Shown here: positions 7,815-41,578 of the stretch, piece after piece | Layout of the letters: the number at the start of each line of letters is the position of its first letter | Position numbering within the stretch: position 1 is the first letter of the stretch | NCBI GenBank assembly: GCA_026391945.1 | Contig: JAPLDA010000095.1 | Location: forward strand, 1 to 41,578 | From: Bacteroidota bacterium | Lineage (GTDB): Bacteria > Bacteroidota > Bacteroidia > AKYH767-A > 2013-40CM-41-45 | Length of the DNA stretch: 41,578 bases | Reading direction: 5' to 3' | The notes under the pieces: model-generated | Told to the model about the DNA's origin: nothing | Database searches by the model: none | Seen by the model: the letters and a program-made list of their open reading frames with translations, nothing else | Program-made: the position numbers and the translations under genes

Positions 7815-10800
7815 TTACCTGATCAAAGTAACTCCGCCGGTCAAAACTGTTTTTTCAAACGCCTGGTTATTAAGTTCTATTCGGTAAAAGTATGTTCCTC
7901 CCGGCGCCTGTTCTTTCCCACCTTTAATGGTTCCGTTCCATGAATGGATGGGTCCGCCGGAAAATATTTCATTTCCCCACCGGTCGTAGATGGTCATGCT
8001 GTATTTCTCAAGCCCTGACCCCATGGGAGAAAATACATCATTCTTTCCATCGTTATTCGGAGTAAATGAATTGGGAATGTAAATGGCAACATCCTCTTTA
8101 ACCACGATGATGAATGTGAAAGTATCCACACATCCCGCGGCATTCATTACCTGGAGAGAGCCATTGTATGAACCTGCTGCAAGAAATGAATGAACCGGGT
8201 TTTTTTCGGTGCTTGTATCACCGTCACCAAAATTCCAAATCCATCCTGTAGCATCCGTTGATAAATCAGTAAACGATACCTGCGGCTGAAGAGCAGATGG
8301 ATTTTTTGGAAGGTAGTTGCAAAGCGCAGTTGGTGAAGGAAGCACGGTGACGAGCACCGATGCCATGACGGGGGAAGTGATGCAGGCATCGGTTGCGGAG
8401 ACTACATAATTGGTGGTAGTAGAAGGAAAAACTGTGATGGTATCTCCATGACCGCCTCCATTGTTCCAGGAATAATCATAAGGGCCACCCAGTCCGCCCA
8501 AAGCTTGTGCATGAAGAACTACCGTTTCATCGCGGCAAACGGATACCGGGTCTCCGGCAGTCAGCTGGATGGGAGGAAAAGTATGAATGGCAATTGAATT
8601 CGATACGGCAGTTGTTGTTGTTAAACAGGTTTCATCTGAAATCATGATGAGCCTGATGATGTCTCCGCCAGATAAATTGGAAGAAGTGAATACAGGGTTG
8701 TTGACGCCATTGCTAATTCCATTCACCTGCCATTGGTAAGCAGGATTGCTTCCGCCATGAATAATGTTTGAATTGAAAATAGCCATAGCGCCGGGACAAA
8801 TCGTATCATTGGGTGTAACAAGAATAGAAACTGATGGCGTTGAAAGCGATGTGACCGTAATGATTACAGCATTCGAACCCACAGTTGATGGAACAGCACA
8901 AATTTCATTTGAAGTCAGTGTGACATCAACAACAGCGGCATTCGTTGGATTGGTTATAGTAAAAACAGAAGCGTTGGGTCCGGTAAGAATTCCATTTACA
9001 TGCCATTGATAAACCGGTGAAGTTCCCTCATGAGCCACAACAGAAGTAAACTGAATGCTGTCGCCGGAACAAATGGTGTCGTTGGGAACAGCCTGTATGC
9101 TTACAGTTGGTGTCACAGACGGATCAATAAAAAGTTGGATGGAATCGGATGCGCTGGCAGGATTCACGCACGACAGATCGGAAGTCATCGTTACCTGAAT
9201 GACATCTCCGTTTGTCAATGAAGAAAATGAAATTGTATCTGAAAAAGCACCAGCAATTGGTGTTCCGTTTACAAACCATTGATACAACGGAACGGAACCT
9301 CCATGAACAGGAATTGCTGTCGACAGAATAGGTGTTCCCGCACAAATGCTGTCGGATGGATTGATGATTAACGAAACGGATGGAGTGGCATTTGGTATCA
9401 CGCTGATAACCGACCACGATGAAGCGGAAGCTGGAGATGCACAGGAAAATGCTGATACCATCGTTACACTTACTGAATCCATGGTATTCAAAGAGGAAGA
9501 TGAAAAAGAATTTCCATTACCGGAAGCGATGCCATTCACATACCATGTGTAAGAAGGAGGACTGCCGCCATTAACGGGAACGGGAGTGAATTGTGTGTTG
9601 GTTCCGGAACATATCGTATCATTCGGAAAAACCTGGATACTGACCGAAGGAATCGCACTTGAAATAACATTGGCAAGAACAGTATCTGAAACGATGGCTG
9701 TTGTTGCGCAACCGGAATTAGAGGTCATGATCACCTTTACGATATCACCATTCACAAGAGTGGAAACTGAAAATGTATCGCTGTTTGTTCCTATGTTCAT
9801 TCCGTTTATTTGCCATTGATAGGATGGAGTGGTTCCGCCTGATACAGGATTCGCAGTGAATACAATCGTATTGCCTGAGCAAAACGGAGCGGTTGTATTT
9901 GACGTGATGCTGACAGTTGGTGTCACGCTTGCATTCACAGGCACAATGACCTGGGCATTCGCTGTTGCTGCACTTAGGCATTGCAGATTTGAAGTCATGA
10001 CCACGCTCACAACAGAAGGGGTGTTCAAAATCACTGAGAACGTATCGCTGTTGGTTCCGGCATTTACGCCATTCACCTGCCATTGATAGGATGGAGATGT
10101 TCCGCCGTTCACAGGAACCGCAGTGAATAAAACGGAAGTCCCGGCACAGGCCGCTCCGGCTGGCGCAGCACTTAACGCAACAGAAGGATTTACAAAATTA
10201 TTGATCGTCACATTTTGCTGAGAAGAGAAAAGACAGGCTCCGCTTGCATAATTGAGTGTGACAGGGAAAGTTCCCTGCAACGGGTACTGGACAACGGTAA
10301 GCGGAGTATCGTTGACAACAGGGTTACCCGAACCTGGAATTTGCCAGTCGTAATTTGCAGCAGCACCGGCACCAAGCCCCGTGATGGAAACATTTTGTCC
10401 CGCACAGGCAGGGTTCGGGCTGATCGTGAAACCCGGGTTGTTGTTTGGAATGACGAAAACGGTTGCTGTGTCTATCGTCGCTTGTCCGCAGGCATCGGTA
10501 ACCCTGATCTGATAATCCGTTGTTACAGCAGGTGAAACAAAAATGGTATCGTTGTTCGATCCGGATGGTGTCCATGAATAAGTGAAAGGAGCTACACCGT
10601 ATTGCGAAGTCACCACCAGGTTAGCGCTGTCACCTTCACAAATCTGCTGGTTGGGACTGAGGGATGCGATCTGCACTGTTTGTCCCATGATGATGACCGA
10701 CCATGCTGATGCAGCCGCAATACAGGCGGAATTGCATCCGGCTGTTGCATCGTTATTGCACCGGTAAAAATTCATATTGAAATTCATGATGTATGGAAGG

Positions 10801-12074
10801 CATTGAGGTGTAGAAAGACAGGGAAGAAAATCAAAAAACATGGACACATTGCTTAGCGTGCAGATTCCTGAACCTGCCACGTTACAGGAATGTACTCCTG
10901 CTGCCGGGCTCCTGCAGCTTCCGTAATCAATGCTGACGCCGCCGTCGGGCCACATGCACAATCCCTGGGCGAGGTATTGAAAATCAAATTTGATATCGGT
11001 GATCGTGCAGTTTGCCGGTGTGTTAAAGAAAAGTGGGTACGAGCATCCGCTTGTCCAGCAAGTTGCATTGTACTGTGAACCTGTGATGGATGCCTGTCCA
11101 AGATTGCCTGAAGTAGCCACCATGGGATCAATGACAACGGGATAAATGGTGCCCGGATCATTGAGCCAGCTCACCGGGATGTAGGTCAGCAACTGATCCT
11201 TTTGTATTTCGCTTCCCGCCCTGATGGTATGCCTTTGTTCTGCACCATCGAATGCCACGCACGGATAGATGCGGAAGTATTCATTGGACTGATCGGTTAC
11301 TGCTATTTCTCCGAGGAGTTTTCCGAAATCATCTTTGTTTGTTTCATCGGGATTAAAAGCCAGGCCCGGCGGCAACATCATCTCTTGTTTCATGACCAGC
11401 CAGTTGCCGCGAAGCTGGAGTCGGTTCCTGATGATAAAATTTGTTTTCAGTTTTCCTTCCATCACAATCATTTCAAGATCAATTCCGGGATAGAAGTCTT
11501 TGATGAGTACGCCGTCATCGCCGGCTGAATAATGGCTCCAGTCGGGTGTTCCGAGAGATGTGACGGATCCGCTTTGATCCTGTTCAAAAAGTTCAGGGTT
11601 TTTATTGAAACGAAATTCATTTCCCATGCAGGTGATGGAAGAGTATTTCCCGGGAAGGTTGATGACAACCGGTGAAGACTGGTTGCGTGCTTCAAATATT
11701 CCGGCAGTACCGGGCTGCAAACGGTAATTGATTTCCTTCCAGAACCCGGATGAATCTTTGTAATTGATTGCGCCATACGATTGCTGTTTATAAAACATTT
11801 TTCCATGGCTTTTCTTATCAATGAAATACCTGTTGGTTGCGTCACGGTGATCAAGCAATTCCATGCAATCTTCACAGGGAGGATGGTACGGAAGGATTCC
11901 ATACTCAGGATGTTTTTGAAGTGCTGCTGGAGTCAACGAATCAACCCATGCATCACGGTTTTGTTTCCGTGATGTGAATGAAACGAAATTGTATTGATCT
12001 TCATACGGAATTCCTCCGGCAAAAAGAGCAGAAGCGATGACGGAGAAAAAAAGAATGAATAAATTTTTTTTCAT
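7815..12074 (-). CDS. Giant Ig/PKD-repeat surface protein with gliding-motility-type CHU_C (T9SS type B) domain
   Basis: About 1,419 residues from the ATG at 12074. The frame extends to 12101, but that codon lies beside the -7 box at 12103-12110. A signal peptide (KKNLFILFFSVIASALFAGG) is followed by a ~300-residue N-terminal region ending TIYPVVIDPMV and a cysteine-rich section. Then come an Ig-like domain, six ~88-residue Ig-like repeats (core TPSVSI...NDTICSG...YQWxVNG...VTMTS), another Ig-like domain and a PKD domain (SFTDLSTDATGWIWNFGDG). The final ~90 residues are CHU_C: YIPNSFTPNNDGKNDVF, YDRWGNEIF, PGGTYFYRIELN. T9SS should deliver it to the surface, where an adhesin-like role is likely. 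Ligand unknown. It has its own good promoter. Confidence 0.9.
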   Translation of the reverse strand: MKKNLFILFFSVIASALFAGGIPYEDQYNFVSFTSRKQNRDAWVDSLTPAALQKHPEYGILPYHPPCEDCMELLDHRDATNRYFIDKKSHGKMFYKQQSYGAINYKDSSGFWKEINYRLQPGTAGIFEARNQSSPVVINLPGKYSSITCMGNEFRFNKNPELFEQDQSGSVTSLGTPDWSHYSAGDDGVLIKDFYPGIDLEMIVMEGKLKTNFIIRNRLQLRGNWLVMKQEMMLPPGLAFNPDETNKDDFGKLLGEIAVTDQSNEYFRIYPCVAFDGAEQRHTIRAGSEIQKDQLLTYIPVSWLNDPGTIYPVVIDPMVATSGNLGQASITGSQYNATCWTSGCSYPLFFNTPANCTITDIKFDFQYLAQGLCMWPDGGVSIDYGSCRSPAAGVHSCNVAGSGICTLSNVSMFFDFLPCLSTPQCLPYIMNFNMNFYRCNNDATAGCNSACIAAASAWSVIIMGQTVQIASLSPNQQICEGDSANLVVTSQYGVAPFTYSWTPSGSNNDTIFVSPAVTTDYQIRVTDACGQATIDTATVFVIPNNNPGFTISPNPACAGQNVSITGLGAGAAANYDWQIPGSGNPVVNDTPLTVVQYPLQGTFPVTLNYASGACLFSSQQNVTINNFVNPSVALSAAPAGAACAGTSVLFTAVPVNGGTSPSYQWQVNGVNAGTNSDTFSVILNTPSVVSVVMTSNLQCLSAATANAQVIVPVNASVTPTVSITSNTTAPFCSGNTIVFTANPVSGGTTPSYQWQINGMNIGTNSDTFSVSTLVNGDIVKVIMTSNSGCATTAIVSDTVLANVISSAIPSVSIQVFPNDTICSGTNTQFTPVPVNGGSPPSYTWYVNGIASGNGNSFSSSSLNTMDSVSVTMVSAFSCASPASASSWSVISVIPNATPSVSLIINPSDSICAGTPILSTAIPVHGGSVPLYQWFVNGTPIAGAFSDTISFSSLTNGDVIQVTMTSDLSCVNPASASDSIQLFIDPSVTPTVSIQAVPNDTICSGDSIQFTSVVAHEGTSPVYQWHVNGILTGPNASVFTITNPTNAAVVDVTLTSNEICAVPSTVGSNAVIITVTSLSTPSVSILVTPNDTICPGAMAIFNSNIIHGGSNPAYQWQVNGISNGVNNPVFTSSNLSGGDIIRLIMISDETCLTTTTAVSNSIAIHTFPPIQLTAGDPVSVCRDETVVLHAQALGGLGGPYDYSWNNGGGHGDTITVFPSTTTNYVVSATDACITSPVMASVLVTVLPSPTALCNYLPKNPSALQPQVSFTDLSTDATGWIWNFGDGDTSTEKNPVHSFLAAGSYNGSLQVMNAAGCVDTFTFIIVVKEDVAIYIPNSFTPNNDGKNDVFSPMGSGLEKYSMTIYDRWGNEIFSGGPIHSWNGTIKGGKEQAPGGTYFYRIELNNQAFEKTVLTGGVTLIR
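8580..10195 (-). repeat. Six tandem Ig-like repeats inside the CHU_C protein
   Basis: Six degenerate units of roughly 88 codons encode the pattern TPSVSI / NDTICSG / GGxxPxYQWxVNG / VxVTMTSxxxC. Each unit has a Cys after the T-I-C motif and a second Cys near its end, suggesting one disulfide per module. DNA identity between units is modest, so the array looks old. Confidence 0.8.
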
Positions 12075-12102
12075 GGCAAGGAAACCCGAACAGGCTCCCA
12101 TG

Positions 12103-17117: not shown

Positions 17118-18893
17118 ATGAAACGAATCATCACTTTATTGTTTTCAGTCACTATTTTTTCTGCATGGACTTTCGCTCAACCGGCTTCCAAATTTAATTT
17201 TTCATTGGCACTGAAACTGAAAAATGAAAATATTCAGAACAGTGAAATAGCGGTTTTTGTACAGGGAGATGTGAATGCGATCAGGGAAAAGACTGCAGAA
17301 CTTGGCGGAGTGTTTAAATATTCAGCCGGCAACATTGCCGCCATCCGTTTGCCGCTGAATAAAGTAAAATCATTGTCGAACCTGGCATCGGTTACGAGAA
17401 TTGAAAATTACGATCTGAAATTGCAGCCGATGAACGACCAGGTGATCATTCATAATCATGCATGGGAAGTGCAGCAGGGATTCAACCTGCCGCAGGGATA
17501 TGACGGTAGCCATGTGGTCATAGGAATCATCGATGAAGGTATTGATTTCACTCATCCTGATTTCAGGAATGCCAACGGAACAACGCGTATTAAATATGTA
17601 TGGGACCAGACGTACGGCCCGACGGCCATGTCGCCGCAGCCATACGGTTATGGAAGAGAGTGGAAGGGAAGTCAGATTGATACTACCGTGATGCATCATG
17701 ATGGGTCATCCAGTCATGGTTCGCATGTGGCGGGGATTGCAGCCGGCAACGGTTTAGCCCTGAACAACTACAAAGGAATTGCACCGAATGCCGACATCAT
17801 TGTGGTGAAGATGAACCTGAATGTTCCGGATAACAACTTCCTGACTTCACTGGTGGATGCTGTCAGGTATGTTTTTGAAAAAGCAGATTCACTGAATGAG
17901 CCGGCTTCCATCAACGTAAGCCTTGGAACTTATTTCGGATCTCACGATGGAAGGGATATCCAGACGATCATGATTGATACGTTGATCTCCGGTCATGCCG
18001 GAAGGTCGCTAACTTGTGCAGCAGGCAATGCCGGAAGTGCACCGATACACATCGGGTACAACGTGACCAGTGATACCTCTTTCACCTGGCTGATTGCACC
18101 GTATTCTCCATCAACGAACAACCAGGTTTATGTGGAGTTGTGGGGCGACAGTGCCAACTTTACAAATGTTCAGTTTGCTATGGGAATTGACCGCGTTCAG
18201 CCTGCAATCACTTCGCTTGCCGGAATTCCTTTCAGTACGATACAAACGAATCTTGGAATTCAGAATACCTATACGCTTTATTCAGGATCGAACAGGCTTG
18301 GCATTGTTGAAACTCAGGGTGAATATCTTCACGGCGCATACACGATGGCTTTCCTCATCACGCCTGATTCAGCAACATCGGTTTATCGCTGGAGACTGAT
18401 GACGAAGGGAAGCGGCCATCTCGACGGATGGAGTTTAGATATGGTTGCCGATAACCTTCCTGATTCTTCGGTATATCCTTCCATCGTCCATTACAAAAGG
18501 CCTGACCTGGATCAGAACATTGCAAGCAGTTTCACCTGCAGCGACAAGGTGATTACGGTGGGCAGTTACGTGAACCGGAACAGTTATTCGAATTCCATTT
18601 TTGCGCAAACCATCGATACCACCCTCGTGCCGGGCAAGCTGTCTGCATTTTCAAGTCATGGCCCTACTCGTGATGGAAGAATAAAACCCCGCCCTTGCTG
18701 CGGTGGAACCTTTGAAAGTAGCCGCCGGGAAAAAACATTTCAGGAGCAGCGGCACGTCCATGTCATCGCCCGTAGTTGCCGGAATTGCGGCGTTGTATCT
18801 TCAACGGTATCCGAATGCAACGTATGCCGATGTGAAGAATGCAATTCTTGCCTGTGCCGACCAGGATGCATTTACTGGTTCTTCTTTGCCTGA
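17118..18893 (+). CDS. Secreted subtilisin-like S8 protease, N-terminal part (frameshifted after ~523 codons)
   Basis: A signal peptide (MKRIITLLFSVTIFSAWTFAQ) is followed by an inhibitor-like propeptide (~25-105) and an S8 domain. Two triad residues are visible: D139 in VIGIIDEGID and H200 in HGSHVAGIAAG; the AGNAGS oxyanion region follows. The frame is normal through FSSHGPTRDGRIKP and then reads an unrelated cysteine-rich tail (CCGG..., CNVCRCEECNSCLC) to a stop at 18893. The missing catalytic Ser block lies in another frame just downstream (18703-19233). As read, this product lacks the nucleophile and sorting domain. An extra base in the C run at 18687-18690 explains it, either a real mutation or an assembly error. 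The N-terminal ~523 residues are securely identified. Confidence 0.85.
   Translation: MKRIITLLFSVTIFSAWTFAQPASKFNFSLALKLKNENIQNSEIAVFVQGDVNAIREKTAELGGVFKYSAGNIAAIRLPLNKVKSLSNLASVTRIENYDLKLQPMNDQVIIHNHAWEVQQGFNLPQGYDGSHVVIGIIDEGIDFTHPDFRNANGTTRIKYVWDQTYGPTAMSPQPYGYGREWKGSQIDTTVMHHDGSSSHGSHVAGIAAGNGLALNNYKGIAPNADIIVVKMNLNVPDNNFLTSLVDAVRYVFEKADSLNEPASINVSLGTYFGSHDGRDIQTIMIDTLISGHAGRSLTCAAGNAGSAPIHIGYNVTSDTSFTWLIAPYSPSTNNQVYVELWGDSANFTNVQFAMGIDRVQPAITSLAGIPFSTIQTNLGIQNTYTLYSGSNRLGIVETQGEYLHGAYTMAFLITPDSATSVYRWRLMTKGSGHLDGWSLDMVADNLPDSSVYPSIVHYKRPDLDQNIASSFTCSDKVITVGSYVNRNSYSNSIFAQTIDTTLVPGKLSAFSSHGPTRDGRIKPRPCCGGTFESSRREKTFQEQRHVHVIARSCRNCGVVSSTVSECNVCRCEECNSCLCRPGCIYWFFFA
18687..18690 (+). other. 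Putative single-base frameshift site in the S8 protease gene
   Basis: The sequence ATAAAACCCCGCCC contains A4 and C4 runs. With one C removed the frame continues as IKPALAAVEPLKVAAGKKHF and joins the GTSMSSP catalytic block. Subtilases usually read RIKPDLAAPG here, so the repaired protein fits the family. Confidence 0.75.
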
Positions 18894-30855: not shown

Positions 30856-32406
30856 TTAATCTTTAAGAATCTTCCTGTGAATTTGTTTGTCTTTCTGATA
30901 AAGTGTTAAATAATACAAACCACTGTTCAGCCTGCTGATGTCCATTTCAAATTTTGATGCAGTAAGGACATCTTTCATTAGAAGTTTTCCGGAAATATCG
31001 TGTAGTTCAAAGTAACCGCCGGGAGTATTGCTTTCAATGGTGATTTTACCTGAAGATGGATTTGGAAATACGATGACATTGTTATCCGGATTATTTTCTT
31101 TGATACCACCGATAATAGCCACACATCCTGAATCTGAAAGAAGCGTAGGAATGTTGACATCAGGATAAATTTGATTCAAAACTCCGCCTGATGTATTCGT
31201 GAATACAGCTGAAGTAGTAATCAAGGTATCCGCTATCGGTGTAACAGTTTGACCGGGGGAAATACAAACCAATGCATTTCCAGTCGAATCCGTTTTAATA
31301 ATTCCCATTTGAGGATTGCTGGTAGATGATGACTTGACTCCGAAAATCGGTCCATTGCCAATGATAAAATATCCCTTGTCTTTTAATTCAATAATATCTA
31401 TAGGATAAAGATATGGACTTTGTGTCCAGAGTACATTCCCGACAGAATCAATTTTAACACAAGAACCTATGCCACTGAGGAAAACATAGCCGTTATCTGA
31501 AGTCTTATGTATTTTCGGTGATGGACAATTCAAACAAATTGAACTCCCTATATTACTATAATTTTTACTCCATAAAATATTTCCCAAAAAATCGGTTTTC
31601 ATTAATACCATGTCGTTTCCTGAATTCAAATAACAGAGAAGACCGTTGGGTACTACTTCTAAATCATTCCCACCGCACACTGTGGGAATAGGAAGGTTGT
31701 ATTTTTTTGACCATGAGACTGTCCCTGCAGGAGATAGTTTGATCAGAAAAGCATTCGCATCAATAGGGGGAAAATTTTCGATGAAACCAATTATTACGTA
31801 CCCGCTGTCAGGAGTTTGTTTTACTGAAAAAGCGGAATTCGCATTGTTGCCGCAGGTAAAAACATGTGCCCATTCAAGGAAGCCTGAGAAATTTATTTTA
31901 GCTACAAAAATTTTAAAGTTTGGCGGACCGCTGATTCCAACATAACCGGTAATGATGTATCCAGAGTCGATTGTCTGCTGAATGGATAAAGCTTCCTGGC
32001 TTCCGCTGAAAGCTATAGCTTTCGACCAAAGTGTATCACCATTGGAATTTACCTTCACGCATAAAATTTCCGTATGTCCGCTGGATGTATTAAAAGTCTT
32101 TCCTGCAAGAACAAAACAAGAATCAGTGGTTGCTATAATGCAGTTAAAGACTTCGTATCCGCTACTCCCTATTTTTTTACTCCATAAATAATTTCCTGCC
32201 GAATCAATTTTCAAAATGAGTCCTTCAGATCCTGTACTTCCGGCTATCACATAACCATTGTCGAATGACTGAACCACACCATACCCATACGTCGCAGCGG
32301 TAGAATCATAGAATACTTTTGAAAAAGTATTTTGTTGCGCCTTCAGAGAAGGAATAACAGTCAATAAAAAATAAATGACCGGGAACAGAATTCGTTTTGT
32401 TTTCAT
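30856..32406 (-). CDS. Secreted repeat protein with T9SS type A sorting domain
   Basis: About 516 residues from the ATG at 32406; a TTG two codons upstream is less likely. A signal peptide (MKTKRILFPVIYFLLTVIPSLKAQ) is followed by ~7 repeats of 45-55 residues built on DNGYVIAGSTG / ILKIDSAGNYLWSKKIG. These are blades of a beta-propeller-like domain common in Bacteroidota secreted proteins. The last 75 residues are a T9SS type A sorting domain (VFPNPSSGKITIES, LNSGLYYLTLYQKDKQIHRKIL). Exported by Sec and T9SS. No enzymatic motif is seen, so the role is unknown. Confidence 0.87.
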   Translation of the reverse strand: MKTKRILFPVIYFLLTVIPSLKAQQNTFSKVFYDSTAATYGYGVVQSFDNGYVIAGSTGSEGLILKIDSAGNYLWSKKIGSSGYEVFNCIIATTDSCFVLAGKTFNTSSGHTEILCVKVNSNGDTLWSKAIAFSGSQEALSIQQTIDSGYIITGYVGISGPPNFKIFVAKINFSGFLEWAHVFTCGNNANSAFSVKQTPDSGYVIIGFIENFPPIDANAFLIKLSPAGTVSWSKKYNLPIPTVCGGNDLEVVPNGLLCYLNSGNDMVLMKTDFLGNILWSKNYSNIGSSICLNCPSPKIHKTSDNGYVFLSGIGSCVKIDSVGNVLWTQSPYLYPIDIIELKDKGYFIIGNGPIFGVKSSSTSNPQMGIIKTDSTGNALVCISPGQTVTPIADTLITTSAVFTNTSGGVLNQIYPDVNIPTLLSDSGCVAIIGGIKENNPDNNVIVFPNPSSGKITIESNTPGGYFELHDISGKLLMKDVLTASKFEMDISRLNSGLYYLTLYQKDKQIHRKILKD

Positions 32407-32481
32407 GAACAAAATAGTTGGAGTGAAAAAATCTTCCGTTATATCCTTCTTGTAAAGATAGCAATGATTTTAAGTATGATG

Positions 32482-35714: not shown

Positions 35715-38700
35715 ATGAAACGCTACTTTACAACTACAAACTTCAATAGGATTTTTATTTTCCTGTTCATGTTTTCCATGAATCCTGTTTTGTTGTCCGC
35801 TCAACAACTCCAGATGTCTGACTTTGTTGTATTCGGTGGAAACGGAACTACTCCGGGTTGCACGCAACCTTCTACTCCGGGTCCCGGTGTTCAGATCGGT
35901 AATTCGACAAGCATCAGTGGTTGTGCTGTCGGCAGTTACAAACTGATCAAGTCGACAGGCTCGGTGAAATTCAGCGGTGATATTTACTGTGGCGGAACCG
36001 TTGTGCTTTCCAACAACGATACGATCAGCGGAAAAATAACTTCTGCTAATACTTCTTCTGCAACCGGAACCATTTTAAGTATTGGTTCAGGAGCGAAGAT
36101 AGGAGGAAATGTGGATGTGAACGGAAATGTTGTGGTGACCAGTGGAACGGTTTCGGGAAAAGTAACTCATCCTTCCGGCACTACGTACACCGGACCTGTT
36201 CCTGCCGGTGGCAATGTAACAAGCGCACCAACACTTCCGACGTTACCGGCATTGCCGCCGATCACGACTTTTCCTTCAGTAGGAACCACTAACATAACCG
36301 GTACGCAAACCATCACTCCCGGAGCGTATAAGAGCATCACCCTTACAGGCGGAAAAACTCTTACGTTTAACGGTCCCGGTGTGTATGTTTTTAAATCCAT
36401 CACCAACAGCGGAACGCTCAACAATTTTGTTTTCAATTTTCAGAATACCACTTCCGGAAATTTTTATATTTATGTAATCGGTGATGCGAACCTGAATATT
36501 TCCAGTGCCAGCATGATTAACGGAGGAAGTGCATCACGCATCTATTCCGAAACTCATGGAACAGGTTCGACCTCATCCAACGGAACGTATTCCTGGGTGA
36601 TGGCGAATGGCACAACCGGCGGTACCAATTCAAAATGGCTTGGAACAGTTTGGGCGCCCTATGCGGCGATCAACCTTGGATCTTCCACCGGCGGAACAGA
36701 GTTCATCGGTGCGCTTTGGAGCGGGACACAGGTTAATATACAGTGCGGTGTAAGCATTGTGTGTATGCCTTTTGCTACCTGCACAACGCCCAGTGCAAAT
36801 GCAGGAGCTGATAAACAATTAAACTGTTCTGTTACTTCTTTGCAGTTGAGCGGATCGTCAACAACAACCGGTGCAACGTTTAGCTGGACAACTGCCAATG
36901 GCGGTAACATTACTTCCGGCGGAAGTACAGCAACTCCGACTGTGAATGCTGCAGGAACTTATATTCTCACTGTTACAAGTCCATCGGGTGGATGTACTGC
37001 AAAAGATACAGCCATTGTCACCATCGACAACAGTGTTCCAAATGCCAATGCCGGAGTTGATAAACAATTAAATTGTTCTGTCACTTCTTTGTCATTGAGC
37101 GGTTCATCATCTACTGCTGGCGCAACCTTTAGCTGGGCAGCTTCCAATGGAGGCAACATAACATCTGGTGCAAATACAGCAACACCGACAGTGAATGCCG
37201 CCGGTACGTATATGCTGACTGTCACCAATCCAACCAGTGGCTGCACGGCAAAAGATACAGCCATTGTCACCCTTAATAATAGTACACCGAATGCAAATGC
37301 TGGTTCAAATAAAATATTGACATGTTCTGTCGTATCTGTTTTACTCAGCGGATCACCTTCTGTAGCCGGGGCTACCTATGGATGGACCGCAAGCGGCGGA
37401 GGTCATATTGTTTCAGGAGCAAACAGTCTTTCTCCTCTGGTGGATGCTGCCGGTTCGTATGTATTGACGGTGACCAATCCTTCCAATGGTTGCAGCGCGA
37501 CAAGCAGTGCATCCGTTACATTGAATAATTCTTTACCTGATGTTCATGCAGGAAGCGGAGGACAGATCACCTGTTCAAATCCAAACGTCACACTCAATGG
37601 TTCATCTTCCACTTCCGGTGTTCAGTTTTTATGGACCAGCCAGAACGGAACTTTTGTTTCGGGTGCTCATTCAACTTCTCCTGTTATTGATGGTGAAGGG
37701 ACATTCACATTAACGGTAACGGATCCTTCCAACGGTTGCAGTGTAGCAGATAGTGCATTGGTGACACGGATTCCATGCATCTTCCCGTATTATCCTCCGC
37801 CTCCAGGAGGTAAAGTAGGTGATGTGATCGGTTCGGAATTACATTCACTGTTTTATAATTTCGGAAATGTAGTCGATACCATTGAAAATATTTTCCGCAT
37901 CAGTGACGACAGCGTATGGGTTGAAATTATTTACAACAAAGATCAGTATGCTGCCTTGCTTGCCTTGCTCCAGACACCTGATTATGGTTTAACGGATATC
38001 ATTGATAACGGAAGCGGCAACCTGATCATCACCGGGAAATTTCCGATCAGTCATTTGTTGAAGCTGGATAGTTTACCCAGCCTGATCAATTACGTACGGC
38101 CTGTATTTCCTCCGATTACCGTTGCCGGAATTGCCAATACGGCCGGTGACATTTCAATGAAATCAGATCTTGCAAGGAATGGTTTTAAAGTAAAAGGTGA
38201 TGCCGCAAAGGTTGGCGTTCTTTCAAACAGTTACAATACCATCGCCGGTAACCCGGCACTGACGGATGTTCTGGATGGTGATCTCCCGGGAGCAGGAAAT
38301 CCTGATAACCCGGATCCTGTGAATGTACTGCGTGATTATCCTTATGGAGTTCGTTCCGATGAAGGCCGCGCCATGTTGCAGATCGTACACGATGTGGCGC
38401 CGAATGCCAAACTTGATTTCCGCACCGGCTTCATCAGTGCCGGAGATTTCGCACAGGGAATCCGCCAGTTAAAAGCAGACAACTGCAATGTGATTGTGGA
38501 TGACATCACGTATATCACTGAACCGTTTTTCCAGGATGGTCTTGTTGCAAAAGCAGTAGATGAAGTGACTGCCCAGGGTGTATCGTATTTTTCTGCTGCC
38601 GGTAATTACGGAAATAAATCCTACACCGGAGTTTTTACTCCTGCACCAACTGCTTATGGAATGGCAGGCTTCGCCCATGATTTCGGCGGTGGAGATATTT

Positions 38701-41578
38701 TCCAGAATCTTTCTCTTACACCGGGAACTTATACCATCGTATTGCAATGGCAGGATTCCATTTATTCAATCGGTCAGACACAAACAGGAACGAACAATGA
38801 CCTCGATATTTTCCTGACGTACGACAATGGTAAAACGTTATTCGGGTTCAACAGGAATAACATCGGCGGCGACCCGATGGAAGTGTTGTCATTTGTGGTG
38901 ACTGAAAATACTTCCAGTAACCTCATGATTGTTCGCACTGCAGGTTCAGGCCCGGTTACGTTCAAGTACATTGCTTTCCGCGGAGATCCTGTTATCAACG
39001 AATACAACCAGGGAACATCAACCATTGTAGGTCAGTCGAATTCTGCCGGAGCCATCACCACTGGAGCTGTTCTTTATTCAAACACTCCTCCGTTTGGTGT
39101 CACTCCTCCGACCGTTGCATCTTTCTCTTCCATTGGAGGAACGCCGGTTAATGGAGTGGTGAGAAACAAACCTGACCTCTGTGCTCCGAATGGCGGCAAT
39201 ACCACGGTGAACATGGGCGGGCCGAACATTGATGGTGATGCTTTTCCTAATTTCTTCGGAACTTCAGCGGCGGCGCCACATGCAGCAGGAGTAGCAGCAC
39301 TTCTCATCGACGGGAAGAAAAAATTCTATAACCAGGATTTAACTCCTTCTGAAACACGTTCCATTTTACAGACTACAGCAGTCAATATGTATGCTCCGGG
39401 ATTTGATTTCAATTCAGGTTTCGGATTGGTGGATGCTGATGCAGCGATGAGAACATTCGCCGCGCCAACTCCGGAGATCACCGATTTACTTACTCCTCCG
39501 GGATCCACTCCGGGTACCGTTCAGTTACTCGTGACGGTAAAAGGAAGATACATGACGACTCAATCCAAAATTTTATTCCGCGGAGATGAACTGACTACTA
39601 CGTTTGTGGATGTCAATCATCTTTCAGCTACGGTGCCTGCGTTCAGTGGAAATCCGCCGATCCAGGTATTCACGCCACCGGTTACTCCAAGCGGTGAAGA
39701 CGGTGGGTTATCCAATTCATTGTACTTCTTTGCCCCGGTTAAAAAAGAAGTGCATGTGACAGCCGATAACAAAACAAAAAAATTCGGAGAGAAGATTCCT
39801 GCATTTACTGCAACCGTAACAGTGGACGGACTATCACTGGCAACAGCGGGGCTTACTTTAACGGATCTCGGACTCGATGATCTTGGTTTCCTTTCACCGG
39901 CAACTAGCTTAAGCAATACCGGTTTGTATTTCATCAGGCCGGTCAAGGATACGTCGGCACTTGATGTCAGCTTCAAGGAACTCTATCATTATACATTAAC
40001 GGATGGATTGTTAAGCATTACGAAAATGCCTCTTGTGATCACACCGAAGGATACAACGCTTACCTATGGCGACAAGCTCGGTGATTTCCATTTTAACTAC
40101 GATTATGATCAGACTAATATTGATGTCAGTGATCTTTCTGTTTTCCTGGGCTCACTGGAATCGGCACATACTTCCAACATGTCAAATGCCATTGCATTTG
40201 TAGATGCGAAAGTAGTGACCAATGGAAAAGTGGTGACCAACATTGATCTTCTTAAATTGAATATGCTTGCCAGCGCGAAAGTGGTAACCAACGCGAAAGT
40301 GGTAACCAATGCAAAAGTGGTGACCAACACACTTGTGTTTGATACAACTCTGCTGGTTGAAGTATCTCCGCAATCCATTTTCAATTATGAAAATGACTCC
40401 GCCTCAACAACGCTTGTTAGTCCGCCGGGAGGAGGCCATTCGCGTGCTTTACTGAATGCAAAAGTGGTGACCAATGGCGGAGGACTCGTCAATGCAAAAG
40501 TGGTGACGAATGGTTCACCGCTGGTGAACAGCAACACGGTGAATGACAACAGCAATCAGAACACGGTCATTATTCTTGATGAGGATGACGTAACGGATAC
40601 GTTGAATACGATTACGGAACTTCAGCCGATCAACATGGTAACCGGAATTACATCAGGTAACTGGAACATTGTTCCCGGAGCGATGCTTTCAGAAAATTTC
40701 GAAATCACGTATGGTTTGGGAAACCTTATCATACTGCCTGCTACTCTTACAGTGAAGGCCGATGATAAGAATCCATTGTGCTCAGAGTTGCCGGTGTTCT
40801 CTTCTGTCATTACAGGTTTTCAATACAGCGATTCTGCAAGTACGGTTGATTCGATTGCTCCATCCTACACTGTATTGGATAACTTAAATAATATAGTTAC
40901 CGGTGTTCCTCCTGCAGGTATATACCAGGTTGTTCCTGGAGGATTGCAACAGTTTTCACCGCCGGATTATATAGTGGTTTATGAGAATGGAACGTTGACG
41001 ATGCCATCGTTACTGACTTTGACGGCCACGCCGACTCAGCCTTTGTGCAATGGTGAAACAGGCACAGTGGATCTTGTTGCCGGTGGAGGAACAGGAATTT
41101 ATACTTATGGTGGGGATGCAGTTTCTGGATTGACACAGGGAACCTATAACTACTCGGTGCAGGATGCAAATGGTTGCATCGCAACAGCAACAGCTTTAGT
41201 AGATGCAGCGCCATCCTTACTTGAACTTACTGCCACTCCGACTCAACCGTTGTGTTTCGGTGAAACAGGAACCGTAGCTTTATCAGCACAAGGAGGAACA
41301 GGATCGTATAGCTTTGGCGGAGATCCTGTGCTCAGCCTTGGCGAAGGAACCTATCACTATACCGTTGAAGATGGAAACGGCTGCACGGCGAATGCGACGG
41401 CTTCTGTTTCTGCGGCTCCATCGCTGCTGACTTTATCTGCCACACCATCGCAACCGAAATGTTTCGGCGAAACCGGAAGCGTCGTACTTTCAGCAAGCGG
41501 AGGAACAGGTTTATATACTTACAGCGGTGACAATACTTCTAGCCTTGGATCAGGAACGTATTCTTACACGGTACAGGA
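35715..41578 (+). CDS. Giant multidomain surface protein: beta-helical domain, Ig repeats, subtilase-like domain, MBG domains, SprB repeats (3' end outside window)
   Basis: One frame of 1,954 codons from ATG 35715 without a stop before the window ends. Domains by residue: signal peptide 1-31; beta-solenoid-like region ~35-350, rich in G/S/T/N turns (FNGPGVYVFKSIT, WLGTVWAPYAAINLG); four 83-residue Ig/PKD-like repeats ~360-685; linker; subtilase-fold domain ~830-1245 with AAGN964 and GTS1184AAAPHAAG; an IPT-like domain ~1250-1340; MBG-type domains ~1345-1440, ~1440-1680 and ~1680-1765, the second interrupted by KVVTN repeats (1498-1600); then SprB-like 69-residue repeats from ~1764. The Asp and His triad positions look replaced (N838, E883), so activity is doubtful. 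The sorting domain should lie beyond the edge; T9SS export and adhesion are inferred. I checked the frame at several points along the gene. Confidence 0.9.
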   Translation, partial: MKRYFTTTNFNRIFIFLFMFSMNPVLLSAQQLQMSDFVVFGGNGTTPGCTQPSTPGPGVQIGNSTSISGCAVGSYKLIKSTGSVKFSGDIYCGGTVVLSNNDTISGKITSANTSSATGTILSIGSGAKIGGNVDVNGNVVVTSGTVSGKVTHPSGTTYTGPVPAGGNVTSAPTLPTLPALPPITTFPSVGTTNITGTQTITPGAYKSITLTGGKTLTFNGPGVYVFKSITNSGTLNNFVFNFQNTTSGNFYIYVIGDANLNISSASMINGGSASRIYSETHGTGSTSSNGTYSWVMANGTTGGTNSKWLGTVWAPYAAINLGSSTGGTEFIGALWSGTQVNIQCGVSIVCMPFATCTTPSANAGADKQLNCSVTSLQLSGSSTTTGATFSWTTANGGNITSGGSTATPTVNAAGTYILTVTSPSGGCTAKDTAIVTIDNSVPNANAGVDKQLNCSVTSLSLSGSSSTAGATFSWAASNGGNITSGANTATPTVNAAGTYMLTVTNPTSGCTAKDTAIVTLNNSTPNANAGSNKILTCSVVSVLLSGSPSVAGATYGWTASGGGHIVSGANSLSPLVDAAGSYVLTVTNPSNGCSATSSASVTLNNSLPDVHAGSGGQITCSNPNVTLNGSSSTSGVQFLWTSQNGTFVSGAHSTSPVIDGEGTFTLTVTDPSNGCSVADSALVTRIPCIFPYYPPPPGGKVGDVIGSELHSLFYNFGNVVDTIENIFRISDDSVWVEIIYNKDQYAALLALLQTPDYGLTDIIDNGSGNLIITGKFPISHLLKLDSLPSLINYVRPVFPPITVAGIANTAGDISMKSDLARNGFKVKGDAAKVGVLSNSYNTIAGNPALTDVLDGDLPGAGNPDNPDPVNVLRDYPYGVRSDEGRAMLQIVHDVAPNAKLDFRTGFISAGDFAQGIRQLKADNCNVIVDDITYITEPFFQDGLVAKAVDEVTAQGVSYFSAAGNYGNKSYTGVFTPAPTAYGMAGFAHDFGGGDIFQNLSLTPGTYTIVLQWQDSIYSIGQTQTGTNNDLDIFLTYDNGKTLFGFNRNNIGGDPMEVLSFVVTENTSSNLMIVRTAGSGPVTFKYIAFRGDPVINEYNQGTSTIVGQSNSAGAITTGAVLYSNTPPFGVTPPTVASFSSIGGTPVNGVVRNKPDLCAPNGGNTTVNMGGPNIDGDAFPNFFGTSAAAPHAAGVAALLIDGKKKFYNQDLTPSETRSILQTTAVNMYAPGFDFNSGFGLVDADAAMRTFAAPTPEITDLLTPPGSTPGTVQLLVTVKGRYMTTQSKILFRGDELTTTFVDVNHLSATVPAFSGNPPIQVFTPPVTPSGEDGGLSNSLYFFAPVKKEVHVTADNKTKKFGEKIPAFTATVTVDGLSLATAGLTLTDLGLDDLGFLSPATSLSNTGLYFIRPVKDTSALDVSFKELYHYTLTDGLLSITKMPLVITPKDTTLTYGDKLGDFHFNYDYDQTNIDVSDLSVFLGSLESAHTSNMSNAIAFVDAKVVTNGKVVTNIDLLKLNMLASAKVVTNAKVVTNAKVVTNTLVFDTTLLVEVSPQSIFNYENDSASTTLVSPPGGGHSRALLNAKVVTNGGGLVNAKVVTNGSPLVNSNTVNDNSNQNTVIILDEDDVTDTLNTITELQPINMVTGITSGNWNIVPGAMLSENFEITYGLGNLIILPATLTVKADDKNPLCSELPVFSSVITGFQYSDSASTVDSIAPSYTVLDNLNNIVTGVPPAGIYQVVPGGLQQFSPPDYIVVYENGTLTMPSLLTLTATPTQPLCNGETGTVDLVAGGGTGIYTYGGDAVSGLTQGTYNYSVQDANGCIATATALVDAAPSLLELTATPTQPLCFGETGTVALSAQGGTGSYSFGGDPVLSLGEGTYHYTVEDGNGCTANATASVSAAPSLLTLSATPSQPKCFGETGSVVLSASGGTGLYTYSGDNTSSLGSGTYSYTVQ
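36792..37767 (+). repeat. Four tandem 249-bp repeats (83-residue Ig/PKD-like modules)
   Basis: The codon after NANAG in successive units is at 36810, 37059, 37308 and 37557, exactly 249 bp apart each time. Units 1 and 2 are the most alike (both AGxDKQLNCSVTS...), unit 4 the most diverged. Each unit has a Cys near its start (LNCS) and one near its end (GGC/SGC/NGC). Confidence 0.9.
40206..40512 (+). repeat. KVVTN short repeats inside an MBG-type domain
   Basis: Seven copies of KVVTN: two in tandem at 40206-40241, three perfect 18-bp units AKVVTN in tandem at 40275-40328, and two spaced copies at about 40458-40512. Third-codon-position changes between units show they are not freshly copied. 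Confidence 0.88.
41004..41578 (+). repeat. SprB-like repeats, 207 bp each (at least three, running off the window)
   Basis: Units begin PSLLTLTATPTQPLCNGETG at 41004, 41211 and 41418, spaced exactly 207 bp (69 residues). Each has GGTGxYxYGGD, QGTYxYxVxDxNGC and an A-rich end. The pattern matches the SprB repeat of Bacteroidota gliding and adhesion proteins. The third unit is cut by the window end. Confidence 0.88.

Follow-up and report, generated by a model that had tools for sequence, protein, structure and literature searches.

A giant surface protein of a Bacteroidota bacterium with a genome-specific hexapeptide array and a downstream TPR sensor gene: a candidate ligand–receptor pair

The closest described parallels to the locus analysed here come from quorum sensing in Bacillota. 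The TPR receptors of the Rap/RRNPPA type bind peptides of 5–6 residues in a groove (PMC3601965), several RRNPPA propeptides hold multiple pheromone copies (PMC9765709, PMC11343458), and some of these copies are freed by extracellular proteases (PMC3601965, PMC9765709, PMC10075063, PMC11343458). As in the Rap–Phr pairs, the gene of a candidate ligand precursor adjoins a TPR receptor gene (at 65 loci in this study), and the candidate ligands are likewise 5–6 residues long. However, the RRNPPA receptor is cytoplasmic, whereas the putative receptor found here is predicted to be transmembrane, with a periplasmic TPR domain, and differs also in its cyclase, kinase or phosphatase output; the RRNPPA precursor is a short secreted propeptide (10–100 aa), whereas the precursor candidate described below is a T9SS surface protein of at least about 2900 aa; and the hosts are Gram-negative Bacteroidota rather than Bacillota. 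By analogy, the pair may work like an RRNPPA system, yet it is not a member of that group.

A second parallel is offered by the alpha-factor precursor of yeast, which contains several copies of one signal peptide, uniform within a precursor and different between lineages; release of the peptide is proven, and its receptor is a GPCR. The protein studied here would similarly be a secreted precursor with a multi-copy, lineage-specific word, but, unlike alpha-factor, it contains an embedded protease fold and relies on T9SS, and release of its peptide is presumed rather than proven. Finally, SprB repeats, PKD_6 domains and a Por_Secre_tail are shared with the SprB-repeat and CHU_C/Por_Secre_tail adhesins of Bacteroidota, from which the present family is set apart by a conserved protease–MBG core with its word array and by a linked TPR sensor gene.

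The window, i.e. the whole stretch of DNA analysed (41,578 nucleotides), is the entire contig C40 of a 3.1-Mb genome assembled in 114 contigs. A sequence-only reading made earlier had noticed a frame that stays open to the window edge. This is indeed the case: from the ATG at 35715, on the plus strand, the frame spans 1954 codons without a stop, and it runs off the edge because C40 terminates within an array of SprB repeats. Contig C86 of the same genome starts in an SprB array that matches the end of C40 (92% DNA identity) and continues as an open frame of 916 aa, which includes PKD_6 domains and closes with a T9SS type A tail before a stop codon; this 3' part of the giant gene is locus L005:3–2753, with the gene end at L005:2753. 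The sorting domain on C86 is matched by Por_Secre_tail (PF18962, 51.9 bits) and by TIGR04183 (42.7 bits), and the window gene qualifies as T9SS type A cargo only via the C40–C86 join. A complete paralogue on contig C73 (3850 aa, with the same core) has Por_Secre_tail within one ORF. No overlap was found between the contig ends of C40 and C86, and in an internal copy on C86 the same two sequences lie 2 bases apart; the gap inside the SprB array may be tiny, or it may hide further repeats. The join is supported by the order of features on C86, where the stop codon is followed by the TPR–cyclase gene, as in the relatives. The sequence-only reading had proposed to extend the gene to its stop codon and to search for a T9SS sorting domain, and both were found on the next contig; the stop codon or frameshift within the frame and the known family that it had named as grounds for abandoning its view did not turn up, the family being looked for in the open-access literature. 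The surface location that it had predicted holds up as well, judged from the signal-peptide-like N-terminus and the type A T9SS tail on C86.

The 5' part of this predicted T9SS-type surface protein (35715–41578, plus strand, 1954 aa, continuing on C86) is a succession of modules, all given here in window coordinates and on the plus strand. A signal-peptide-like N-terminus, judged from the translation (MKRYFTTTNFNRIFIFLFMFSMNPVLLSAQ, 35715–35804), is followed by a putative beta-solenoid, ice-binding-like adhesive domain (35805–36785; PF20597, pAdhesive_15, 19.8 bits, below the cut-off of 23.8) and by four Ig-like/PKD-like repeats of ~83 aa each (36786–37778), which give Ig_7 and PKD_6 matches and have a tandem period of 249 bp. 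The conserved family core of ~1010 aa (aa 689–1700, 37779–40814), defined by alignments A1 and A2, comes next. It comprises a segment that is probably a prodomain (37779–38153; conserved core N-terminus, alpha/beta in the AlphaFold model), a subtilase-fold domain (38154–39458), a choice-of-anchor Z (CoaZ) repeating domain (39465–39680; NF058597, 37.8 bits, cut-off 30) and two MBG-like domains. The first of these (39744–40013) was recognized from sequence pattern and beta structure. The second (40026–40748) is split by the word-array insert, and the match of its C-terminal half to the MBG_2 profile remains below the cut-off (17.8 bits, cut-off 25), which is passed by a further MBG domain downstream (40746–41000; best MBG_2 stretch aa 1678–1762). 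An SprB array (41001–41578) runs into the contig end and resumes on C86. For the window protein as a whole, the Pfam scores (cut-offs in brackets) were 56.5 for Peptidase_S8, PF00082 (21.8), 38.5 for Ig_7 (27.3), 33.7 for SprB (28) and 31.8 for MBG_2 (25). The modules listed in the sequence-only reading are real by Pfam profiles, i.e. Peptidase_S8, Ig_7, SprB and MBG_2, with the beta-solenoid as a sub-cut-off match; CoaZ is a further domain, recognized with NCBIfam. The surface fibre that it had envisaged, with a centre for processing or binding, is a possible description, but it misses the conserved core, the private hexapeptide array and the downstream TPR sensor gene; the array (40206–40511) was absent from that account, and the sensor gene lies outside the window, on C86.

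Three other genes of the window were noted: one for a large surface protein of 1428 aa that combines PKD and Ig domains with a CHU_C T9SS tail (7815–12101, minus strand), one for a separate S8 subtilase of 591 aa, by position unrelated to the giant gene (17118–18893, plus strand), and, near the giant gene, one for a 518-aa protein with a Por_Secre_tail sorting domain (30856–32412, minus strand).

The core, with its constant order of prodomain-like segment, Peptidase_S8 (Glu for His), CoaZ domain and two MBG-like domains, is matched across Bacteroidota by at least 557 stretches of one-genome-per-species contigs, a count obtained with an alignment query, while a single-sequence query found none. 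It is present in 16 proteins from 8 of the 11 genomes of the host's family, as full-length or partial copies in ~24 of the 42 genomes of the order, and in 13 of 392 genomes across the phylum, several of them with the protease part only. Outside the core the modules differ among relatives, with pAdhesive or kelch/LamG domains at the N-terminal side and SprB or extra MBG domains near the C-terminus; short relatives begin like the window protein, while long paralogues have kelch, LamG and other domains, and the proteins with word arrays range from roughly 1,400 to 5,100 aa. Shorter proteins matching only the protease part (~300–500 bits) occur in G434, G444, G468 and G475 and in genomes from the wider phylum such as G364, and perhaps represent an ancestral family without word array. 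The sequence-only reading did not know the combination of modules as a described architecture, and no characterized family emerged from the open-access literature, nor did any earlier description of the gene pair, of an MBG/SprB/subtilase architecture or of peptide–TPR signalling in Bacteroidota; none of the sources searched describes the core, the word arrays or the pairing with a receptor gene.

The subtilase-fold domain belongs to Peptidase S8 by profile and by its subtilisin fold, which AlphaFold models with confidence (pLDDT mostly 80–97). Its top PDB fold matches are clostridial Csp subtilases, pseudoproteases among them, and subtilisins also match. With the S8 and sedolisin-like (S53-like) subtilases and the Csp proteases and pseudoproteases it shares the fold, the GTS serine motif and the AGN oxyanion motif; unlike them, it is fused to an MBG word array and a T9SS tail and has an altered catalytic centre, the positions of which were set by motif rather than by superposition. 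All of the 63 sequences compared keep Ser1184 and the oxyanion Asn964, but the position of the catalytic His is occupied by Glu (Glu883) in every one of them, and Asp has been lost from position 838 in 13 of the 63 (Asp in 50, Asn in 12, among which the window protein, and Ser in 1). A canonical Asp-His-Ser subtilase was rejected on these grounds, and a sedolisin (S53) as well, considering that the residue four positions after Glu883 is an invariant Met instead of Asp and that the AGN oxyanion motif keeps its Asn, where a sedolisin has Asp. The non-canonical triad makes protease activity uncertain.

The insert in the second MBG domain contains seven copies of [A/G]KVVTN, namely copies 1 and 2 (AKVVTN GKVVTN, 40206–40241), copies 3 to 5 (three times AKVVTN, 40275–40328, an 18-bp tandem with 87% matches), copy 6 (AKVVTN, 40458–40475) and copy 7 (AKVVTN, 40494–40511), and is not covered by any Pfam model. 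The C73 paralogue has the same seven copies; elsewhere in the genome, no DNA coding for KVVTN and no third protein with this word were found. In 80 of the 89 relatives, some word of five residues is present in four or more exact copies; altogether there are 45 different words, among them RALVN, TALVN, KSIVN (×13), SRAIVN (×17), RPLVN, RGIVS, IPLVN and HAIVN; occasionally the unit is longer, with 8 or 9 residues (e.g. NGQPVAIS, GATSRALVN). The word is RALVN in Cnuella takakiae, KSIIN in Ilyomonas limi and RGIVS in Flavihumibacter stibioxidans. Greatly extended arrays of at least 15 units (e.g. NGIPLVN, NGVPYIN, NGTALVN), interrupted by unrelated segments, were observed at L093, L109, L116 and L178, and in some of these the 6-residue spacing is maintained across the breaks.

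Copies that are identical in amino acids differ in their synonymous codons at 0.90 of what independent draws from the codon usage of each gene would give (7664 differences observed, 8519 expected), with a lower value in the window array (34 observed, 64 expected). This near-independence argues that protein-level selection, and not recent duplication, keeps the copies identical. It is conceivable, but in our opinion quite improbable, that the word is a structural repeat kept uniform by its fold and by gene conversion in an ordinary adhesin-protease, and that the TPR gene is an ordinary operon neighbour sensing something else. Degenerate word-like units (GGGLVN, SPLVN) do suggest a loose template, and the spacers of the insert, too, are more similar within genomes than expected (excess +0.115, ~2 SD), which implies that segmental conversion contributes. 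Such an event is plain in the G004 pair (L036 and L037), where the insert spacers are 79% identical and the protease parts only 44%, and old recombination may have helped to equalize the words. However, the fixation of amino acids while codons are nearly randomized, within genes and mostly also between them, speaks against this reading, and one fold does not need 45 different words; words remain identical where the spacers have drifted to ~50%. On the same codon evidence, recent tandem duplication or gene conversion was rejected as the sole cause. Nor do the models contain a regular repeat structure: the AlphaFold model of the core places identical words in helix, strand and loop alike, while the 17-copy array of a relative is predicted to be unstructured beside a confident MBG body. 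A beta-solenoid or ladder as the cause of identical words was not seen in these two models and was discarded.

When the ORFs flanking the core genes were compared all-versus-all, one recurring neighbour emerged, a TPR sensor gene. It lies directly downstream on the same strand at 65 loci, starting −120 to +500 nt from the stop of the giant gene, and is absent from that position at ~10 loci despite sufficient downstream sequence. In the window's genome it is the ORF L005:2819–4819 on C86, on the strand of the giant gene, with TPR and Guanylate_cyc domains. Of the 61 putative receptors, 48 have a hydrophobic segment at the N-terminus, and in 59 a TM segment separates the TPR repeats from the cytoplasmic output, which is a cyclase in 50, a histidine kinase in 7, a SpoIIE phosphatase in 1 and truncated or unassigned in 3. 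In the Pfam search, made on four examples, the input matched TPR_12 and the cyclase PF00211 (197.7 bits); all three catalytic motifs are found in 50 receptors, which classes these as class III nucleotidyl cyclases. Because the output is exchanged while the TPR input is constant, the TPR domain is the part tied to the giant protein.

The domain order is that of the TPR–cyclase and TPR–histidine kinase sensors of Bacteroidota, weaker homologues of which are common in the order, but the present receptors form a separate group, with strong matches of at least 363 bits against at most 273 bits for all others in the order, a large gap in scores that are biased by training on linked copies. Unlike those other sensors, they also co-occur with the core: in the order, 19 genomes have both, 5 the core only, 1 the receptor only and 17 neither (Fisher 1.5e-6), and in the genome with the receptor only, a truncated ORF with SprB lies upstream of it, at the contig edge. 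The receptor is present in 48 of 49 further core-bearing genomes, the exception having a truncated piece of it at a contig end. There is approximately one receptor per set of core gene family members, and the window's genome has a single strong match. Extra receptors for which no core gene was detected occur in G480:C68 (L180), where the upstream sequence is masked, and in G478:C156 (L179).

In 7 of 11 genomes, the paralogues have a common word although they are only 44–60% identical; the expectation from equally or more similar proteins of other genomes is 0.67. The word codons of such paralogues differ at 0.62–1.06 of the independent expectation. The sharing of words by paralogues and the identity of copies within each protein would also follow if identical words recognized each other inside fibres and from one kin cell to another, e.g. 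through in-register beta stacking, while the TPR gene regulated expression or sensed adhesion without reading the word. The words are beta-prone, and the core is flanked by adhesive and SprB modules. We consider such homotypic pairing quite unlikely nonetheless, as it leaves unexplained both the fixed downstream receptor and the co-variation of word and TPR domain; in addition, AlphaFold gave neither ladder nor solenoid, although such models say little about assemblies.

As to numbers, one receptor tends to go with one word, as in G000, G004, G006, G007, G010, G020 and G034 (exceptions: G037 and partly G019), and two receptors with two words, as in G002, G035, G435, G437, G450 and G481 (exception: G464); the association (Fisher 0.02) refers to a comparison defined post hoc, after the first cases had been seen. 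Words that differ more go with TPR domains that differ more (partial r 0.34, protease and cyclase distance removed), but word distance is correlated neither with cyclase distance (−0.18) nor with protease distance (0.10, p 0.14). With words permuted among close relatives only, p ranged from <0.001 to 0.25, depending on tightness, and on account of this weakening the co-variation is to be taken as support, not proof. Among the TPR columns, none with a charge complementary to the words was detected; in particular, a single acidic column matching basic words was sought and discarded.

The reading that we prefer to all others, and to which we give about an even chance, is drawn from these sequence comparisons: the words would be the specific ligand of the receptor's TPR domain. 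In loops of the second MBG domain, the giant T9SS-exported surface protein would present many identical private words (here KVVTN), and the adjoining gene would encode the cognate receptor, with a periplasmic TPR domain, one TM helix and a cytoplasmic output, here an adenylate cyclase. Binding of the word in the TPR groove would switch the cAMP output or, in some relatives, a histidine kinase or a SpoIIE phosphatase, and the Ser/Glu subtilase-fold domain may help maturation or free the word peptides. Binding and the direction in which the signal runs are inferred, as are the freeing of peptides, their passage into the periplasm and the activity of the protease. This ligand reading is favoured by copies that stay identical although their codons have diverged, by the gene pairing with its interchangeable outputs, by the sharing of words within genomes and their co-variation with the TPR domain, and also by the predicted lack of structure of long arrays. 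Against it stand the exceptions in word and receptor counts (G037, G464 and partly G019), the lack of a complementary-charge TPR column, the non-canonical protease triad, and the difference in location between the words, which end up beyond the outer membrane, and the TPR domain, which is predicted to be periplasmic.

The usual porin limit is such that a 6-mer of ~630 Da is near it, and recognition during transit may be an alternative to entry through porins. A related explanation dispenses with peptide release altogether: the TPR domain would read the array of the unfolded giant protein in the periplasm, en route to T9SS, and tune cAMP to the secretion load. Ligand and TPR domain would then share one compartment, and the gene pairing, the word matching and the similarity of whole inserts within genomes would be accounted for; because it explains neither the many copies nor the fast change of words between lineages, we regard this sensing of cargo as unlikely. 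In its strongest form, the ligand reading would have the words freed and read by the TPR receptor as a cell–cell or self signal of Gram-negative Bacteroidota, lineage-private, of 6–8 residues and in up to 17 copies, i.e. a pherotype; this we propose only tentatively, and with some doubt. The pair of giant protein and TPR sensor is rated, from its sequence features, as a putative new kind of system.

If the words are ligands, Bacteroidota would possess a form of peptide signalling with many private dialects, in which a secreted surface protein works together with a TPR receptor, and genomes would directly reveal dozens of ligand–receptor pairs. A ligand would be gained for a class of TPR–cyclase and TPR–kinase sensors for which, to our knowledge, no signals are known; likewise, a function would be provided for a family of giant surface proteins to which annotation gives no other name than 'S8 peptidase', 'MBG' or 'SprB repeat'. 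Signalling apart, the evolutionary pattern of genome-specific arrays in which the amino acids are fixed and the codons free is unusual and calls for an explanation.
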